DNA of 32,536 nucleotides from an uncultured delta proteobacterium (lineage in GTDB: Bacteria > Desulfobacterota > Syntrophia > Syntrophales > Smithellaceae), in the NCBI GenBank assembly GCA_903904655.1, contig CAIVDK010000351.1, positions 1-32,536 of the forward strand. Direction: 5' to 3'. This document shows, one piece after another, positions 26,620-31,490 of this stretch. The position numbers were made by a program, and so were the translations under genes. The stretch's first letter is position 1. Each line of letters opens with the position of its first letter. The notes under the pieces are model-generated. The model was not told the DNA's origin, did no database searches, and saw nothing but the letters and a program-made list of their open reading frames with translations.

Positions 26620-27477
26620 TCAAAACTGATAAATCATCATCATCCCACCGCTGAAATCGTGGTTTGCATCGGTGAAGCCGACGGATCCATAGATTTCCCA
26701 CGAGATCCGGCGCGATTGCATGAAGTTTAGTTTGATCTGTCCCTCTGCCTGAGCCTCCGCCCCCTCGGAACGCGAGGACGAGCCTTTGGCCAGCACGGAG
26801 ACAAATAGCCGCTCCGTCGCCTGGATGCCTACCCCGCCGAGATAGCTGGCATAGTTACGACCGGGATAGTCGGATTTGCTATTCTGGAAGATATAGGCCC
26901 CCTCCCCGAACAGTTGAACGTTTCCCAACCACTTAGAGACCGAAAATCCGGGTCCCGCTTCAACGGTACCGGTTCCCAAACCGCGGTCCAGATCTCCCGA
27001 GGGGACCTTCACATAGAAAGTGGCCCTAGCTTTGTGGGTTTTCTCTCCATCCTGCAACAGGGTCCAGCCGGTTGTCATATTAACATCTCCCACGCCGGAC
27101 GCTTGCACCGTTGTCGCTGCAATCGCCGCCGTCGGCGATCTGTTTGCACCTCGACCCCGTCCGGTGCCGCCGGAGTTGGTCACTACCACACCGCTGTCGG
27201 ATTTGCTGGACAAGTAAAGAAGAGGGACTCCAATGGTGATATCCACTTTGTTTAAAGGATACAAAAAAACAGACAGCGGCAACTTAACCAGTGTGGCATT
27301 GGCGCCTACGCCGTAATCGCCGTGCGAGACCTCAATCCCTAGACCGACAGCGGTTGATGCAGCGTTTTCGAGACGAGGCTCACCATCACGTGCCAAGACC
27401 TGTGACGCTTGCGCAAATAGTGCCAAACAGAGAAACACTCCTACTTTATTTCGTATGCTCATAGTCATGCTCGTCAT
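26620..27477 (-). CDS. exported outer-membrane beta-barrel-like protein
   Basis: About 285 residues. A signal peptide (SIRNKVGVFLCLALFAQASQ then VLA/RDGEP) precedes a beta-rich mature part with alternating aromatic/small residues and a C-terminal Phe (MMMIYQF), as expected of an outer-membrane barrel. The layout (VDITIGVPLLYLS, GVGDVNMTTGWTLL, FYVKVPSGDLDRGLGTGT, GPGFSVSKWL) resembles the MetA-pathway 'phenol degradation/transporter' family. Residues around GGTGRGRGANRSP form a Gly/Arg-rich loop. The upstream frame to 27510 starts with TTG, so ATG 27477 (or 27468, whose RBS spacing is better) is preferred. It is the last of four exported-protein genes. Confidence 0.72.
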   Translation of the reverse strand: MTSMTMSIRNKVGVFLCLALFAQASQVLARDGEPRLENAASTAVGLGIEVSHGDYGVGANATLVKLPLSVFLYPLNKVDITIGVPLLYLSSKSDSGVVVTNSGGTGRGRGANRSPTAAIAATTVQASGVGDVNMTTGWTLLQDGEKTHKARATFYVKVPSGDLDRGLGTGTVEAGPGFSVSKWLGNVQLFGEGAYIFQNSKSDYPGRNYASYLGGVGIQATERLFVSVLAKGSSSRSEGAEAQAEGQIKLNFMQSRRISWEIYGSVGFTDANHDFSGGMMMIYQF

Positions 27478-27534
27478 TTCCTTTCGGTGCTCATGGAAAA
27501 TCGATTTCAACCGCCCGCCCTGACCATGATGAGT

Positions 27535-28056
27535 TCATCGTCCGCGGTGTCCCCCCGCACCGCCACCGCGCATACCCTGGCCCCCGGAACCGCCCTCGCG
27601 GAGTCCGCCGGACCAGGCGGGGATTCCATTTTCACCGCGCAGCACAATGGTTGCACCACCCGGTGAGATGATCCGCTCTGACAACAGATAGGTTCTTCCG
27701 TCCTTGCCCTGGGCAAGCGAGCCCCGCACGGTAACCGGGTCGCCAATCTTCCAGTCCAGGTTATCGTCCTGAAGATACCAGGCAGGTCCAAGAACCACGA
27801 CAATCTGTTCGCCCGGGAGATGCAGATCGAAGGCCATCAGGCCTCCGGCAAGCGGGCGAGGGGAGACCGCAATCGATCCGCTGATCTTCACAACCGTGTT
27901 ACGGTCATACCCCTGTTCCAGATTCAGACCACTTTTATTCGGATCCTTGGAGTCACCGAACCCCCAGACTGCGTCAGCCGTTCCTCCCAGCAGGAGCAGA
28001 AGGATTGCTGCCGCAATCAAGATATAAAAGCACTGAATTCCTCTCATTTTCTCCAT
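27535..28056 (-). CDS. exported OB-fold-like protein with Gly-rich tail
   Basis: 173 residues from ATG 28056 (MEKMRGIQ; ATG 28047 is an alternative). Signal peptide or anchor (FYILIAAAILLLLLGGTADA), then a small beta-barrel-like domain: VVKISGSIAVSPRPL, DLHLPGEQIVVVLGPAWYLQ, WKIGDPVTVRGSLAQGKDGR, TYLLSERI. This recalls bacterial OB-fold periplasmic proteins (BOF/DUF5666-like). The tail is Gly/Arg-rich (GGSGGQGMRGGGAGGHRGR). No function is recognised. The frame extends to 28233 but that part only shadows the preceding 72-residue gene. Spacing to neighbours is 25 and 57 nt. Confidence 0.72.
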   Translation of the reverse strand: MEKMRGIQCFYILIAAAILLLLLGGTADAVWGFGDSKDPNKSGLNLEQGYDRNTVVKISGSIAVSPRPLAGGLMAFDLHLPGEQIVVVLGPAWYLQDDNLDWKIGDPVTVRGSLAQGKDGRTYLLSERIISPGGATIVLRGENGIPAWSGGLREGGSGGQGMRGGGAGGHRGR

Positions 28057-28081
28057 CACCCCGACACGCACTAAGATTGCC

Positions 28082-28300
28082 TCAGCTCTGGCAAGAGCCG
28101 TCCTTCTTCCGGTCCCGCTGCCGGGTCTGATTGGCGGCCAAATCGTATCCGGCTTTCTTTTCCATTGTATAGCTTTGGCAAGAACCGTCCTTCTTCCGAT
28201 CGCCTTTCCGAATCTGATCGCCTGCAGAAGCAATGCTTACAACACACAAACTCACCACCACCATCGTGAATCCCATCTTCAACCATTTCGAAACATTCAT
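28082..28300 (-). CDS. small exported protein with duplicated DRKKDGSCQS
   Basis: 72 residues with a clear signal peptide (KWLKMGFTMVVVSLCVVSIA then SA/GDQ). The mature ~45 residues contain DRKKDGSCQS twice, the second at the very C-terminus, separated by YTMEKKAGYDLAANQTRQR. Each copy has a single Cys. AAGGAGG lies 6 nt before ATG 28300, an excellent RBS. The neighbouring 104-residue protein has the related RRDGSFQS. No family is recognised; the cysteines could bind metal or form a disulfide, or the repeat could be an assembly or processing site. It belongs to the sigma-54-controlled exported-protein group. Confidence 0.72.
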   Translation of the reverse strand: MNVSKWLKMGFTMVVVSLCVVSIASAGDQIRKGDRKKDGSCQSYTMEKKAGYDLAANQTRQRDRKKDGSCQS

Positions 28301-28355
28301 TTCAAACCTCCTTCGTCTTAATTCAAAAATATCAAGTTAAAAACCCCTGCATTCC

Positions 28356-28372
28356 GCTCATTTTTAATGAGC
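28356..28372 (-). other. intergenic stem-loop between two exported-protein genes
   Basis: Perfect dyad GCTCATT-TTT-AATGAGC, 4 nt past the stop of the 104-residue gene. There is no adjacent T-tract (a TTTTT run follows only after about 15 nt), so it may act in mRNA processing or partial termination rather than as a full terminator. Confidence 0.5.
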
Positions 28373-28376
28373 CTTG

Positions 28377-28691
28377 TTACGGCGTCGTGCTTTGGGGATG
28401 GTTGATCCCCGTACCATCCATCACACCGCGGCCATTGGCGGGGCGGGTGGTGGAGCCGTTTGCCGTGGTTCCGGTACTCTGGAAAGACCCGTCACGACGC
28501 TGGGAACCCTCCGGCCGAACCTGATTTGTAGACTGATTCATAGACCGGGTCTGCGACTGGGTTTTTGTCTGAACCCCCTGGCCGCTACCTGCACCTGCTC
28601 CTGTTCCGCCTCCGCGGGCAAAGGATTCGCCCCCAAAAGCCAGTGCAGATCCCACCAATACCGCTATCACCATCATGTGCTTTGCTTTCAT
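28377..28691 (-). CDS. small exported Gly/Ser/Thr/Gln-rich protein
   Basis: 104 residues. A signal peptide (KAKHMMVIAVLVGSALAF then GGESFA/RGGG) precedes a low-complexity mature chain rich in Gly, Ser, Thr, Gln and Asn, with no Cys and no evident fold. It carries QRRDGSFQSTG, related to DRKKDGSCQS in the next gene. The RBS AAGGAGAGACGAAG precedes ATG. Some 55-70 nt upstream on the same strand is a sigma-54 type promoter, and farther up are two dyad sites. It is the first gene of the exported-protein operon. Function is unknown; an intrinsically disordered periplasmic or surface peptide is likely. Confidence 0.7.
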   Translation of the reverse strand: MKAKHMMVIAVLVGSALAFGGESFARGGGTGAGAGSGQGVQTKTQSQTRSMNQSTNQVRPEGSQRRDGSFQSTGTTANGSTTRPANGRGVMDGTGINHPQSTTP

Positions 28692-28745
28692 CTTCGTCTC
28701 TCCTTGTGGATGTAATCGGGAATCATTCCCGTTGCCATAGGATAA

Positions 28746-28761
28746 AGCAGAAGCCGTGCCA
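28746..28761 (-). promoter_or_regulatory. putative sigma-54 (-24/-12) promoter
   Basis: The minus strand reads TGGCAC-GGCTT-CTGCT, one base away from the consensus TGGCAC-N5-TTGCW. The predicted start is near 28735, leaving about 44 nt of leader before ATG 28691. An NtrC-family sigma-54 activator is encoded right upstream, which supports the call. Confidence 0.72.
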
Positions 28762-28834
28762 ATCTCTTCATAAATCGTATCTCACTGTTATCGCTAATGT
28801 ATATACAAAAGGATAAAACCCCCGTGAGACTAAT

Positions 28835-28850
28835 GGTGCAATTGCTGCAC
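28835..28850 (-). promoter_or_regulatory. putative activator (UAS) site 1
   Basis: GGTGC-AATTG-wise dyad: GGTGCAATTGCTGCAC on the plus strand, containing the perfect palindrome GTGCA-N5-TGCAC. It matches site 2 at all positions outside the 5-bp spacer. It is centred about 95 bp upstream of the -12 element, a usual distance for NtrC-type enhancers. Confidence 0.6.
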
Positions 28851-28856
28851 TTATGC

Positions 28857-28872
28857 GGTGCCGATTCTGCAC
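28857..28872 (-). promoter_or_regulatory. putative activator (UAS) site 2
   Basis: GGTGCCGATTCTGCAC, the same GGTGC-N5-CTGCAC pattern as site 1 and 22 bp away, i.e. two helical turns on the same face. It lies just after the stop of the sigma-54 activator gene. Confidence 0.6.
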
Positions 28873-28878
28873 CTTCGA

Positions 28879-30231
28879 TCAACTGTCTGTAAGACCATAC
28901 TCTTTGAGCCGGTACTGCAAGGTGCGCTTCGATATTCCCAGGCGCTCCGCCGCCAGGCGGCGGTTCCCGCCGCACTGTGTCAGGACTTCCAGAATGGCCG
29001 CCTGCTCCCGATTCTGCAAGCTGCCGTCGCTTGCAACCGGTGGTGATTGGACCGGTCGGCGGATCAGCTCCGGAAGCTCGTTCAGTGTGATCCTGCCGCT
29101 GCTCAATATCACGGCCCTTTCGATGACATTCTGCAACTCCCGAATGTTTCCCGGCCAGTCGTAGCCAGAAAAGGCTGCGAGCACATCCTGCTCGACAAGA
29201 GAAATCGCCCTTCCGATCTGCCGGGCCGCCCGTGATACCAGGTACTCGGTCAGGACTGGCAGCGCGTCGCGCCTTTCCCGCAGTGGAGGAAGATGGATCG
29301 GAAAGACGTTCAGGCGGTAGTAGAGGTCTTCCCGGAAACGTTTTTCACGAACTTCGACTGCTAGGTCCCGGTTGGTAGCCGCGACAATCCTCACATCTGC
29401 CCGGATCTCTCGACTACCCCCCAGGCGTTCAAAAGTCCTTTCCTGCACGACCCGCAGCAACTTGGCCTGCAACACCAGGGGCAGCTCGCCGATCTCATCC
29501 AGGAACAAGGTTCCGCCGGCCGCCAGTTCGAATTTCCCCGGACGGACCTGTGTGGCGCCGGTGAAGGCCCCCTTCTCGTGACCGAAGAGCTCGCTCTCCA
29601 TCAGCGTTTCGGGGATTGCCGCACAGTTTACGGCGACAAAAACAGCGTCGCGTCGCCGACCGGCAAGATGGATCATCCGGGCCGCCAGTTCCTTTCCGGT
29701 GCCGGACTCGCCGGTGATCAGGACCGAGGCGGGGGTGTCTGCCACATTCCCGATCAGGCTGTGCACATCCGCCATTGCCACGCCGGCGAACATCACTTTT
29801 TCCGGTGGCAGCCCGGCCGCCTCCCGCTCCTTCAGGACGGTCAGGGTTAGCTCCCGGCGATGGTTATCTAAGGTCCGCCGCACCAGAGCCCTCAAGGCAT
29901 CTGGATCTTTCAGCGGCTTCGTGAGAAAATCGGCGACGCCCTCCTTGAGCGCCGATACGGCATCTTCTACCGTACCGAAGGCGGTTAGCAAAACGAACGG
30001 TGGGGCAATTCCCTCGGATTTAGCCTGGCGGAACAGCTCCAACCCCTCCATGCCCGGCAGCCGCAGATCCGAAAGGACCAGATCGAAGGAGCGGCGACGC
30101 AAGGACAGCAGGGCCTGTTTGCCGTCCTTCTCCTCGACGATGTCGTAACCTTCATCCTCCAGAACCGTGACCAAAAGCGACCGAAAGGTCGGGTCATCCT
30201 CAATAATCAGGATGGTGGCCTGATTCATCAT
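28879..30231 (-). CDS. NtrC-family sigma-54-dependent response regulator
   Basis: 450 residues. The receiver domain has acidic pocket EDD (11-13), phospho-acceptor Asp55 in LSDLRLPGM, Thr/Ser region LLTAFG and Lys105. The AAA+ domain has Walker A GESGTGKE (174-181), GAFTGA (221-226, sigma-54 contact), Walker B TLFLDEIG (241-248), ATNRDL, RxDLYYRL and the arginine-finger region. The C-terminal Fis-type helix-turn-helix is NRRLAAERLGISKRTLQYRL. It overlaps the kinase gene by ATGA. It most resembles ZraR/HydG-type regulators. Two dyad sites and a sigma-54 promoter follow directly, making the downstream exported-protein genes its likely targets. Confidence 0.93.
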   Translation of the reverse strand: MMNQATILIIEDDPTFRSLLVTVLEDEGYDIVEEKDGKQALLSLRRRSFDLVLSDLRLPGMEGLELFRQAKSEGIAPPFVLLTAFGTVEDAVSALKEGVADFLTKPLKDPDALRALVRRTLDNHRRELTLTVLKEREAAGLPPEKVMFAGVAMADVHSLIGNVADTPASVLITGESGTGKELAARMIHLAGRRRDAVFVAVNCAAIPETLMESELFGHEKGAFTGATQVRPGKFELAAGGTLFLDEIGELPLVLQAKLLRVVQERTFERLGGSREIRADVRIVAATNRDLAVEVREKRFREDLYYRLNVFPIHLPPLRERRDALPVLTEYLVSRAARQIGRAISLVEQDVLAAFSGYDWPGNIRELQNVIERAVILSSGRITLNELPELIRRPVQSPPVASDGSLQNREQAAILEVLTQCGGNRRLAAERLGISKRTLQYRLKEYGLTDS

Positions 30232-31490
30232 AATGGCTCCCTCTTTTTACAGGGCGGCAGCAGGACGATAATCTCTGCCCCGCCCCCGTCGGCATTGGCG
30301 GCGCTGATTATGCCTCCGCACCCTTCGACGATCTTGCGGCAGACCGCCAGCCCCAGACCGCTGCCCCGCAGGCGGGTTGTGAAAAAGGGGTCGAAAGCCC
30401 TTTTCAGCGCCTCTTCGCTAAGCCCAGCGCCGCTGTCCCGAACCTTCAACGTGATCATCTTCCTACTCTTTGTGGCCGACAGCCACACCGTCCCTCCCGC
30501 GGGGATCGCCTGCAAAGCGTTGCTGAGAAGATTGATCAGCAGTTGTTGCAGCCTTTCTGGGCGGCAGGCTATCCGTATGTCGGGCAGGGTCGACAGCTCC
30601 GGTTTTGCGGGCTGGGTTTCGTTGCGCTCAACCGTGTTCCACACTTGATCGATAAACGCCTCATTCAGCAGGGTGCAGCCGTCGCCGGGGTCGTCCTGTC
30701 GGGTGTAATCGAGCAGGTCGCTGACCAGCCCTTCCAATCGGACCGTTTCCTGCGCGATGAGGGCGGCGAATTTCCGGGACCGATCGTCGGTGATCCGCTC
30801 CTCCAGCAACTGGGCGTATCCCTTGATACCGGCTAGGGGCGTGCGCACCTCGTGGGCCATCACCGCGCCCAACTCGCCGAGCCGGGCCATCTGTTCCTGC
30901 CGGGCCAGCTGTTCCCGTCGTCGAACTTCACGCTTCTGCAGTCGAACCAGTAAAAAGCCTAACACCCAGGCCCCCGCTGTCAGCGTCAACAGGAGGGTCG
31001 TGCCGGTGCGGGCTCGGTTGATGATCTGATCGGCCTGCCAGGTATGCAACACCAGCCGCAGAATCAGGGTTTCCCCGGGCAGGTGCAGTAGGAGATGAGA
31101 CTCATAGGCCTCCTCCCCTGTGCCCAGGCGGATACTGCTTTCGACGGGCGCGGCAGCGGAGAAAGCGGGAAGGTAGCGGTCGTCGCCAACGGTTTCTCCT
31201 GTCAATTCGGGGTTCTGGTGGAAACGGATCCGGCCGGAACGGTCGATCAGGGCAAAATAGGCAATGTCGCGGTAGCGAAAATCTGAGAGGGCTTTAAAAG
31301 ATGGATCGCGGGCGGCGAGATTCTCTATCGTCTGCCTCAGGGAGAACGCCAGTCCCTGCAGCAAAACCCGAGCCACCGGTCGGGCGTTTTGTTGGCTGGA
31401 TAGAGCAAACCACAGCAGGAAGACGGTCATAAGGATGCCGCCCGTCAGCAGCAGGGTATACGCTCCGGGTCGTTTCATCTGAAAATGCAC
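30228..31490 (-). CDS. membrane sensor histidine kinase
   Basis: 420 residues. Transmembrane helices at about 11-30 and 164-183 flank a periplasmic sensor region (31-163, PAS/Cache-like; FALIDRSGRIRFHQNPELTG is typical of ZraS-type sensors). HisKA has the phospho-acceptor His213 in MAHEVRTPLAGIKGY. The ATPase domain shows N-box LLINLLSNALQAIP, DSGAG (352-356), FDPFFTT and GSGLGLAV (376-383). The start is GTG 31490 with AAGG too near, or ATG 31478; both keep the first helix. There is no HAMP segment of normal length. It is cotranscribed with the response regulator. Confidence 0.9.
   Translation of the reverse strand: MHFQMKRPGAYTLLLTGGILMTVFLLWFALSSQQNARPVARVLLQGLAFSLRQTIENLAARDPSFKALSDFRYRDIAYFALIDRSGRIRFHQNPELTGETVGDDRYLPAFSAAAPVESSIRLGTGEEAYESHLLLHLPGETLILRLVLHTWQADQIINRARTGTTLLLTLTAGAWVLGFLLVRLQKREVRRREQLARQEQMARLGELGAVMAHEVRTPLAGIKGYAQLLEERITDDRSRKFAALIAQETVRLEGLVSDLLDYTRQDDPGDGCTLLNEAFIDQVWNTVERNETQPAKPELSTLPDIRIACRPERLQQLLINLLSNALQAIPAGGTVWLSATKSRKMITLKVRDSGAGLSEEALKRAFDPFFTTRLRGSGLGLAVCRKIVEGCGGIISAANADGGGAEIIVLLPPCKKREPL

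Follow-up and report, generated by a model that had tools for sequence, protein, structure and literature searches.

ZraP-ZraSR is a zinc-responsive sigma-54 envelope stress system of enterobacteria, and FapF is the amyloid transporter of the Fap functional amyloid system. We analyzed a 32,536-nucleotide stretch of DNA from an uncultured delta proteobacterium of the Smithellaceae (contig CAIVDK010000351.1; hereafter, the window), which carries an operon that can be compared with both. As in ZraPSR, a sensor kinase and an NtrC-type regulator adjoin a gene for a small exported protein with a predicted sigma-54-type promoter, and in one relative (L166) that slot holds a ZraP-like protein. Unlike ZraPSR, the operon encodes small proteins that bear no relation to ZraP and, in addition, an exported OB-fold protein and frequently a beta-barrel; its kinase and regulator score well below the ZraS and ZraR equivalog model cutoffs (176 bits against 479 and 365.7 bits against 760, respectively). 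A ZraP-type effector (Metal_resist/LTXXQ) was seen in relative L166 only, and neither small protein of the window gave a significant Pfam match to it. As in Fap, low-complexity secreted proteins are encoded together with a barrel, for which a weak structure model gives FapF as the closest fold.

All genes of the operon lie on the reverse strand. They encode a ZraS/AtoS-like sensor histidine kinase (positions 30228-31490), an NtrC/ZraR-type sigma-54 response regulator (28879-30231), a 104-residue small exported protein (28377-28691), a 72-residue small exported protein with a tandem repeat (28082-28300), an exported OB-fold protein with a Gly/Arg-rich tail (27535-28059, with a possible start at the in-frame ATG at 28047) and an outer-membrane beta-barrel of the PF13557 family with a FapF-like predicted fold (26620-27468). 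The 104-residue protein is the usual occupant of the slot after the regulator; the 72-residue protein comes from an extra gene between it and the OB gene. Both small ORFs have good ribosome-binding sites (AAGGAGG, AAGGAGA) and encode hydrophobic, signal-peptide-like N-termini. A preliminary description had reported that they share a motif, and we confirmed the ORFs and its coordinates: DRKKDGSCQS, the Cys form, occurs twice in the 72-residue protein (28172-28201 and, at the extreme C-terminus, 28085-28114), and RRDGSFQS, the Phe form, once in the 104-residue protein (28476-28499), all on the reverse strand. The resemblance is slightly longer than the motif itself, running as [ND]QxR and then [KR][KR]DGS[CF]QS. 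A degenerate DNA pattern for DGS(C/F)QS has three matches in the window, all in these two ORFs, against 0.04 expected, and none of 100 shuffles reached three. The two copies in the 72-residue protein are not independent, because a single 55-nt tandem duplication (78% identical DNA) spans both; neither this duplication nor the operon setting figured in the preliminary description. Pfam and NCBIfam searches returned no significant family for the small proteins, the whole 72-residue protein found no convincing relative among 59 related genomes, and a full-text literature search on the strings GPGDGTGN, DGTGYG and RDGSCL found no related paper.

The operon was probably acquired horizontally, to judge from its composition and distribution: the block at 26620-31490 has a GC content of 0.54-0.61, the 72-residue gene excepted, against 0.49 in the first 25 kb of the window, and we found neither OB homologues in the other 19 species of the genus searched nor proteins of the 104-residue type in the other 50 family members searched. 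The 72-residue gene looks like a later insertion, extra to the operon, because its GC content is 0.507 and it is absent from the equivalent position in the other operons examined.

We then asked how widely this arrangement occurs. The shared gene order runs from a ZraS/ZraR-like kinase and a sigma-54 response regulator through the small protein to an exported OB-fold protein, frequently with an outer-membrane beta-barrel as well. Scanning one genome per species for homologues of the 104-residue protein gave 16 named loci in Geobacter, Trichlorobacter, Syntrophobacterales and other deltaproteobacterial genomes. Kinase, NtrC-type regulator, 104-residue homologue, OB protein and beta-barrel occur together in 10 of them; at the remaining six, contig ends interrupt the locus or some genes are missing. 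The OB family itself is present in 120 of the 395 genomes sampled across the phylum, and we examined 34 loci chosen by their OB gene. At 13 of these, a kinase-regulator pair adjoins a small protein that carries the motif, either intact or degenerate (LHDGFR in L145 and LKDGSS in L157 were counted). Four loci carry a low-complexity exported slot protein without the motif (L155, L156, L158, L172), four have a regulator-OB operon without any slot protein (L146, L147, L148, L163), and one has the ZraP-like Metal_resist protein in the slot (L166). At L142 (3869-5849), a small RRDGSC protein is encoded directly upstream of two tandem OB genes, beside a Metal_resist gene, and no two-component system was seen in that vicinity. 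A raw listing of neighbors further includes Nramp, MgtE_N, cation efflux, ZnuA, Fur-family regulator and Metal_resist genes near L140, L143, L159, L142 and L160, the Metal_resist genes being those near L142 and L160. Literature searches for the operon returned general sigma-54, ZraSR and Fap papers only.

Upstream of the 104-residue gene, the window carries a predicted sigma-54-type -24/-12 site (TGGCACGGCTTCTGCT; 28746-28761, reverse strand) at a distance of 55 bp, followed further upstream by two palindromes, TGCAATTGCTGCA (28837-28849) and GGTGCCGATTCTGCACC (28857-28873), which are putative regulator-binding sites. The -24/-12 site has one mismatch; chance alone would give about one site of this quality per window, and the weight rests on conservation. 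At about 25 of 36 loci, some of them related and hence not independent and a few with approximate start codons, a TGGCAC or TGGCAT element of the -24 type and TGCA-N5-TGCA palindromes precede the small gene at similar distances; Geobacter-type loci have a degenerate -12 element. These conserved elements are strong, if not formal, evidence for regulation. Altogether, the sequence data make the operon and its regulation very likely.

The motif is conserved well beyond the window. We built a profile from the three window units and searched 395 genomes of the phylum, recovering small exported motif proteins amid many chance matches. Many of the chance matches fell in unrelated or antisense frames; the short motif by itself is unspecific and carries weight in small exported ORFs only. 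Across 15 orthologues of the 104-residue protein, RRDG[ST]F is nearly unchanged, and in the 16-sequence alignment of the family R65, R66, G68 and F70 are invariant, D67 is replaced by Asn in one sequence and position 69 is Ser or Thr. Over a 36-codon core, the 104-residue gene and its near relative in L100 differ by 14 synonymous and 3 nonsynonymous codons. The motif is almost certainly under selection by these sequence measures. The Cys form is found in relatives of the 72-residue type (L055, L059, L071, L085 and others), small exported proteins in which [KR]DGSC or a close variant occurs one to five times, frequently at the extreme C-terminus. The motif was originally read as a functional unit set in otherwise unrelated low-complexity exported proteins, and its near-invariance in one family together with the recurrence of [KR]DGSC elsewhere bears it out as a conserved unit. 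The suggestion that the Cys is not always needed holds too, as Phe stands there in every aligned 104-residue orthologue, while the other small proteins as a rule have [KR]DGSC. The thiol is therefore dispensable, and metal binding through the motif Cys, one of the roles first considered besides possible cross-linking or a processing or sorting tag, is unlikely to be general; we rejected Cys chelation of metal as a general role on account of the invariant Phe.

A third type of small protein, found in other families and carrying RLRDGSC followed by GPGDGTGN and DGTGYG, connects the two forms. It occupies the operon slot of the 104-residue protein, including in L162, a genome of the window's own family. 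Profile comparison relates it to the 104-residue family with an E-value of 3.5e-11, partly over the signal peptide, and to the 72-residue repeats with an E-value of 1.4e-6 over 21 columns. Both forms even coexist in one chain in two relatives of the 104-residue protein (L108, L109), which combine KRNGSC or KRDGSC with RRNGTF or RRDGTF. The two window proteins most likely share the motif because both belong to one undescribed family of floppy envelope proteins present in many Desulfobacterota. In the operons with LRDGSC proteins, a different putative outer-membrane barrel with a GYDSNVxR N-terminus and without a Pfam match follows the OB gene (L162 4324-5148; L159 4024-4842; L160 4181-4960).

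We further investigated the OB protein encoded after the small proteins. Its AlphaFold model has a confident core with OB-type beta-barrel strands, and Foldseek matches this core to the OB domain of lysyl-tRNA synthetase (LysRS; E-value 4e-6). It thus resembles known OB-fold domains (PF01336 tRNA_anti-codon; the LysRS anticodon-binding domain) in its predicted OB-like barrel, and differs from them in being exported and in its Gly/Arg-rich tail. The window protein matches nothing in Pfam or NCBIfam. A paralogue in L150 (5557-6156) matches PF01336 weakly (E-value 0.006) and the magnetosome protein MamS weakly and far below cutoff (E-value 8e-4); comparing the OB profile with solved structures by sequence yielded short or insignificant matches, which were set aside. 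The window protein (tail at 27535-27600) and its homologues end in GGRRGR, GRMGR or GGMMRR, tails that are unusual for an exported OB-fold protein and reminiscent of RGG tails. Since the 34 loci had been chosen by their OB gene, we tested linkage separately with the motif profile, which predates the OB search. A profile match lies less than 2.5 kb from an OB gene in four genomes against 0.057 expected (P ∼ 4e-7), where the distance was chosen after the matches had been seen and three of them fall within 230 bp of the OB gene. In one genome the two parts are fused in a single 250-residue protein composed of an OB-like domain and NQTRTRDRKKDDSCQ, the OB-like half being a modest match (hhalign probability 94% over 72 columns).

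From these observations we propose that the 104- and 72-residue proteins would be consecutive products of a single envelope operon, which the adjacent ZraS/ZraR-like kinase and sigma-54 response regulator would switch on, presumably in response to stress from metal or on the envelope. The slot that follows the regulator would usually encode a short, Sec-exported protein, disordered to judge from its composition, with a conserved core of [KR]DG[ST][C/F] plus DGTG elements; the 104-residue protein would be its standard occupant in the Phe form and the 72-residue protein an added tandem-repeat relative in the Cys form. The motif itself may be a short docking motif, in which a DGS/T turn would present a single hydrophobic side chain (Cys or Phe) next to basic residues and tether the disordered protein to a folded partner in the envelope; the most plausible candidate is the product of the next gene, the OB-fold protein. 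A hydrophobic anchor is favored over a metal-binding thiol because Cys and Phe interchange, and the gene order and the fusion protein make the OB protein the likeliest partner. Most likely, the small proteins are disordered and act in the periplasm as outputs of a response to envelope or metal stress. As a whole, an envelope operon with motif-docked disordered proteins is our best explanation, held tentatively and at a little under an even chance; that the motif docks to the OB protein in particular is possible rather than probable. The OB protein cannot be the whole story, because motif proteins also occur at ECF sigma-factor loci with no adjoining OB gene (L054, L057, L058, L197), and the partner may be a protein other than, or additional to, the OB protein. 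At such loci (L054 2673-5474; L057 7489-10755; L197 5139-8529), DGSC proteins repeatedly have as neighbors an ECF sigma factor, an anti-sigma-like protein of the CBM48/AMPK1_CBM type and a secreted, helical protein whose tail is Gly-rich, and this is a second regulated context for DGSC proteins.

The small proteins might instead stand in for ZraP, sensing or buffering periplasmic metal and feeding back on the kinase, with the motif contacting metal or the kinase. Their operon position next to a ZraS-like kinase is equal to that of ZraP, the slot in L166 is filled by a ZraP-like Metal_resist protein, and Nramp, CDF, ZnuA/Fur and Metal_resist genes lie near some loci. Yet these neighbors come from a raw listing with no background rate, no metal gene was seen beside the window operon, and the dispensable thiol speaks against it as well, so that we regard a ZraP-like role as unlikely.

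The barrel raises another possibility, that the small proteins are secreted through it to serve outside the cell as structural or adhesive subunits and that the motif is a repeat or export-recognition element. The candidate cargo is suitably repetitive and rich in Gly, Ser, Thr and Gln, and the best 18 Foldseek matches of the window barrel are FapF (TM 0.60-0.67), although they were obtained with a weak model (pLDDT 61) for which the next specific family, the COG4313 channel, is almost as close by TM. By sequence, the barrel scores barely above the gathering score of PF13557 Phenol_MetA_deg (22.7 bits against 22). FapF has an N-terminal periplasmic coiled-coil platform (PMC5557850). No coiled coil is present in the model of the 282-residue window barrel, whose first strand begins at residue 39, just past the signal peptide, and the FapF family model gives it 11.1 bits against a cutoff of 700. 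The missing coiled coil and this score led us to reject membership of the Fap system. In addition, the GYDSNVxR-type barrel is not clearly related to that of the window by sequence profile, and LRDGSC operons have either such a barrel or none found by profile. With the barrel model this weak, we consider secretion of the small proteins as cargo quite unlikely.

Tandem copies could also mark precursors cut at dibasic KK or KR to release short peptides that begin or end with DGSC and serve as signals or other small products. Dibasic residues do precede each DGSC in several members, in keeping with the tandem repeats and the frequent C-terminal placement, but LRDGSC members lack the dibasic pair, the 104-residue type contains just one copy and is not built of repeats, and no dedicated protease or modifying enzyme was seen in the operon, which makes processing very unlikely. 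Finally, the absence of any function, with chance convergence of low-complexity charged sequence plus one tandem duplication, would account for the many chance matches of the short motif in unrelated frames and for two of the three window copies, but is extremely improbable and, at the sequence level, already contradicted by the near-invariance of the motif in 104-residue orthologues, with the preponderance of synonymous changes in their core and the linkage of profile matches to OB genes also against it.

These results describe a small exported protein family that lies outside the curated databases searched and comes with a sensor pair and a predicted promoter. What appeared as a lone sequence oddity becomes a defined, testable operon across Desulfobacterota, including relatives in Geobacter and Trichlorobacter, and suggests a new output for a stress response of the ZraSR kind. 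The broadest version, in which a phylum-wide family of disordered exported proteins docks by a [KR]DG[ST][C/F] short linear motif with a Cys or Phe anchor under sigma-54 or ECF control, is speculative and rather unlikely to hold at this breadth. If true, it would give the bacterial envelope a counterpart to the short linear motifs of eukaryotes, governed by sigma-54 two-component systems in some genomes and by ECF sigma factors in others.
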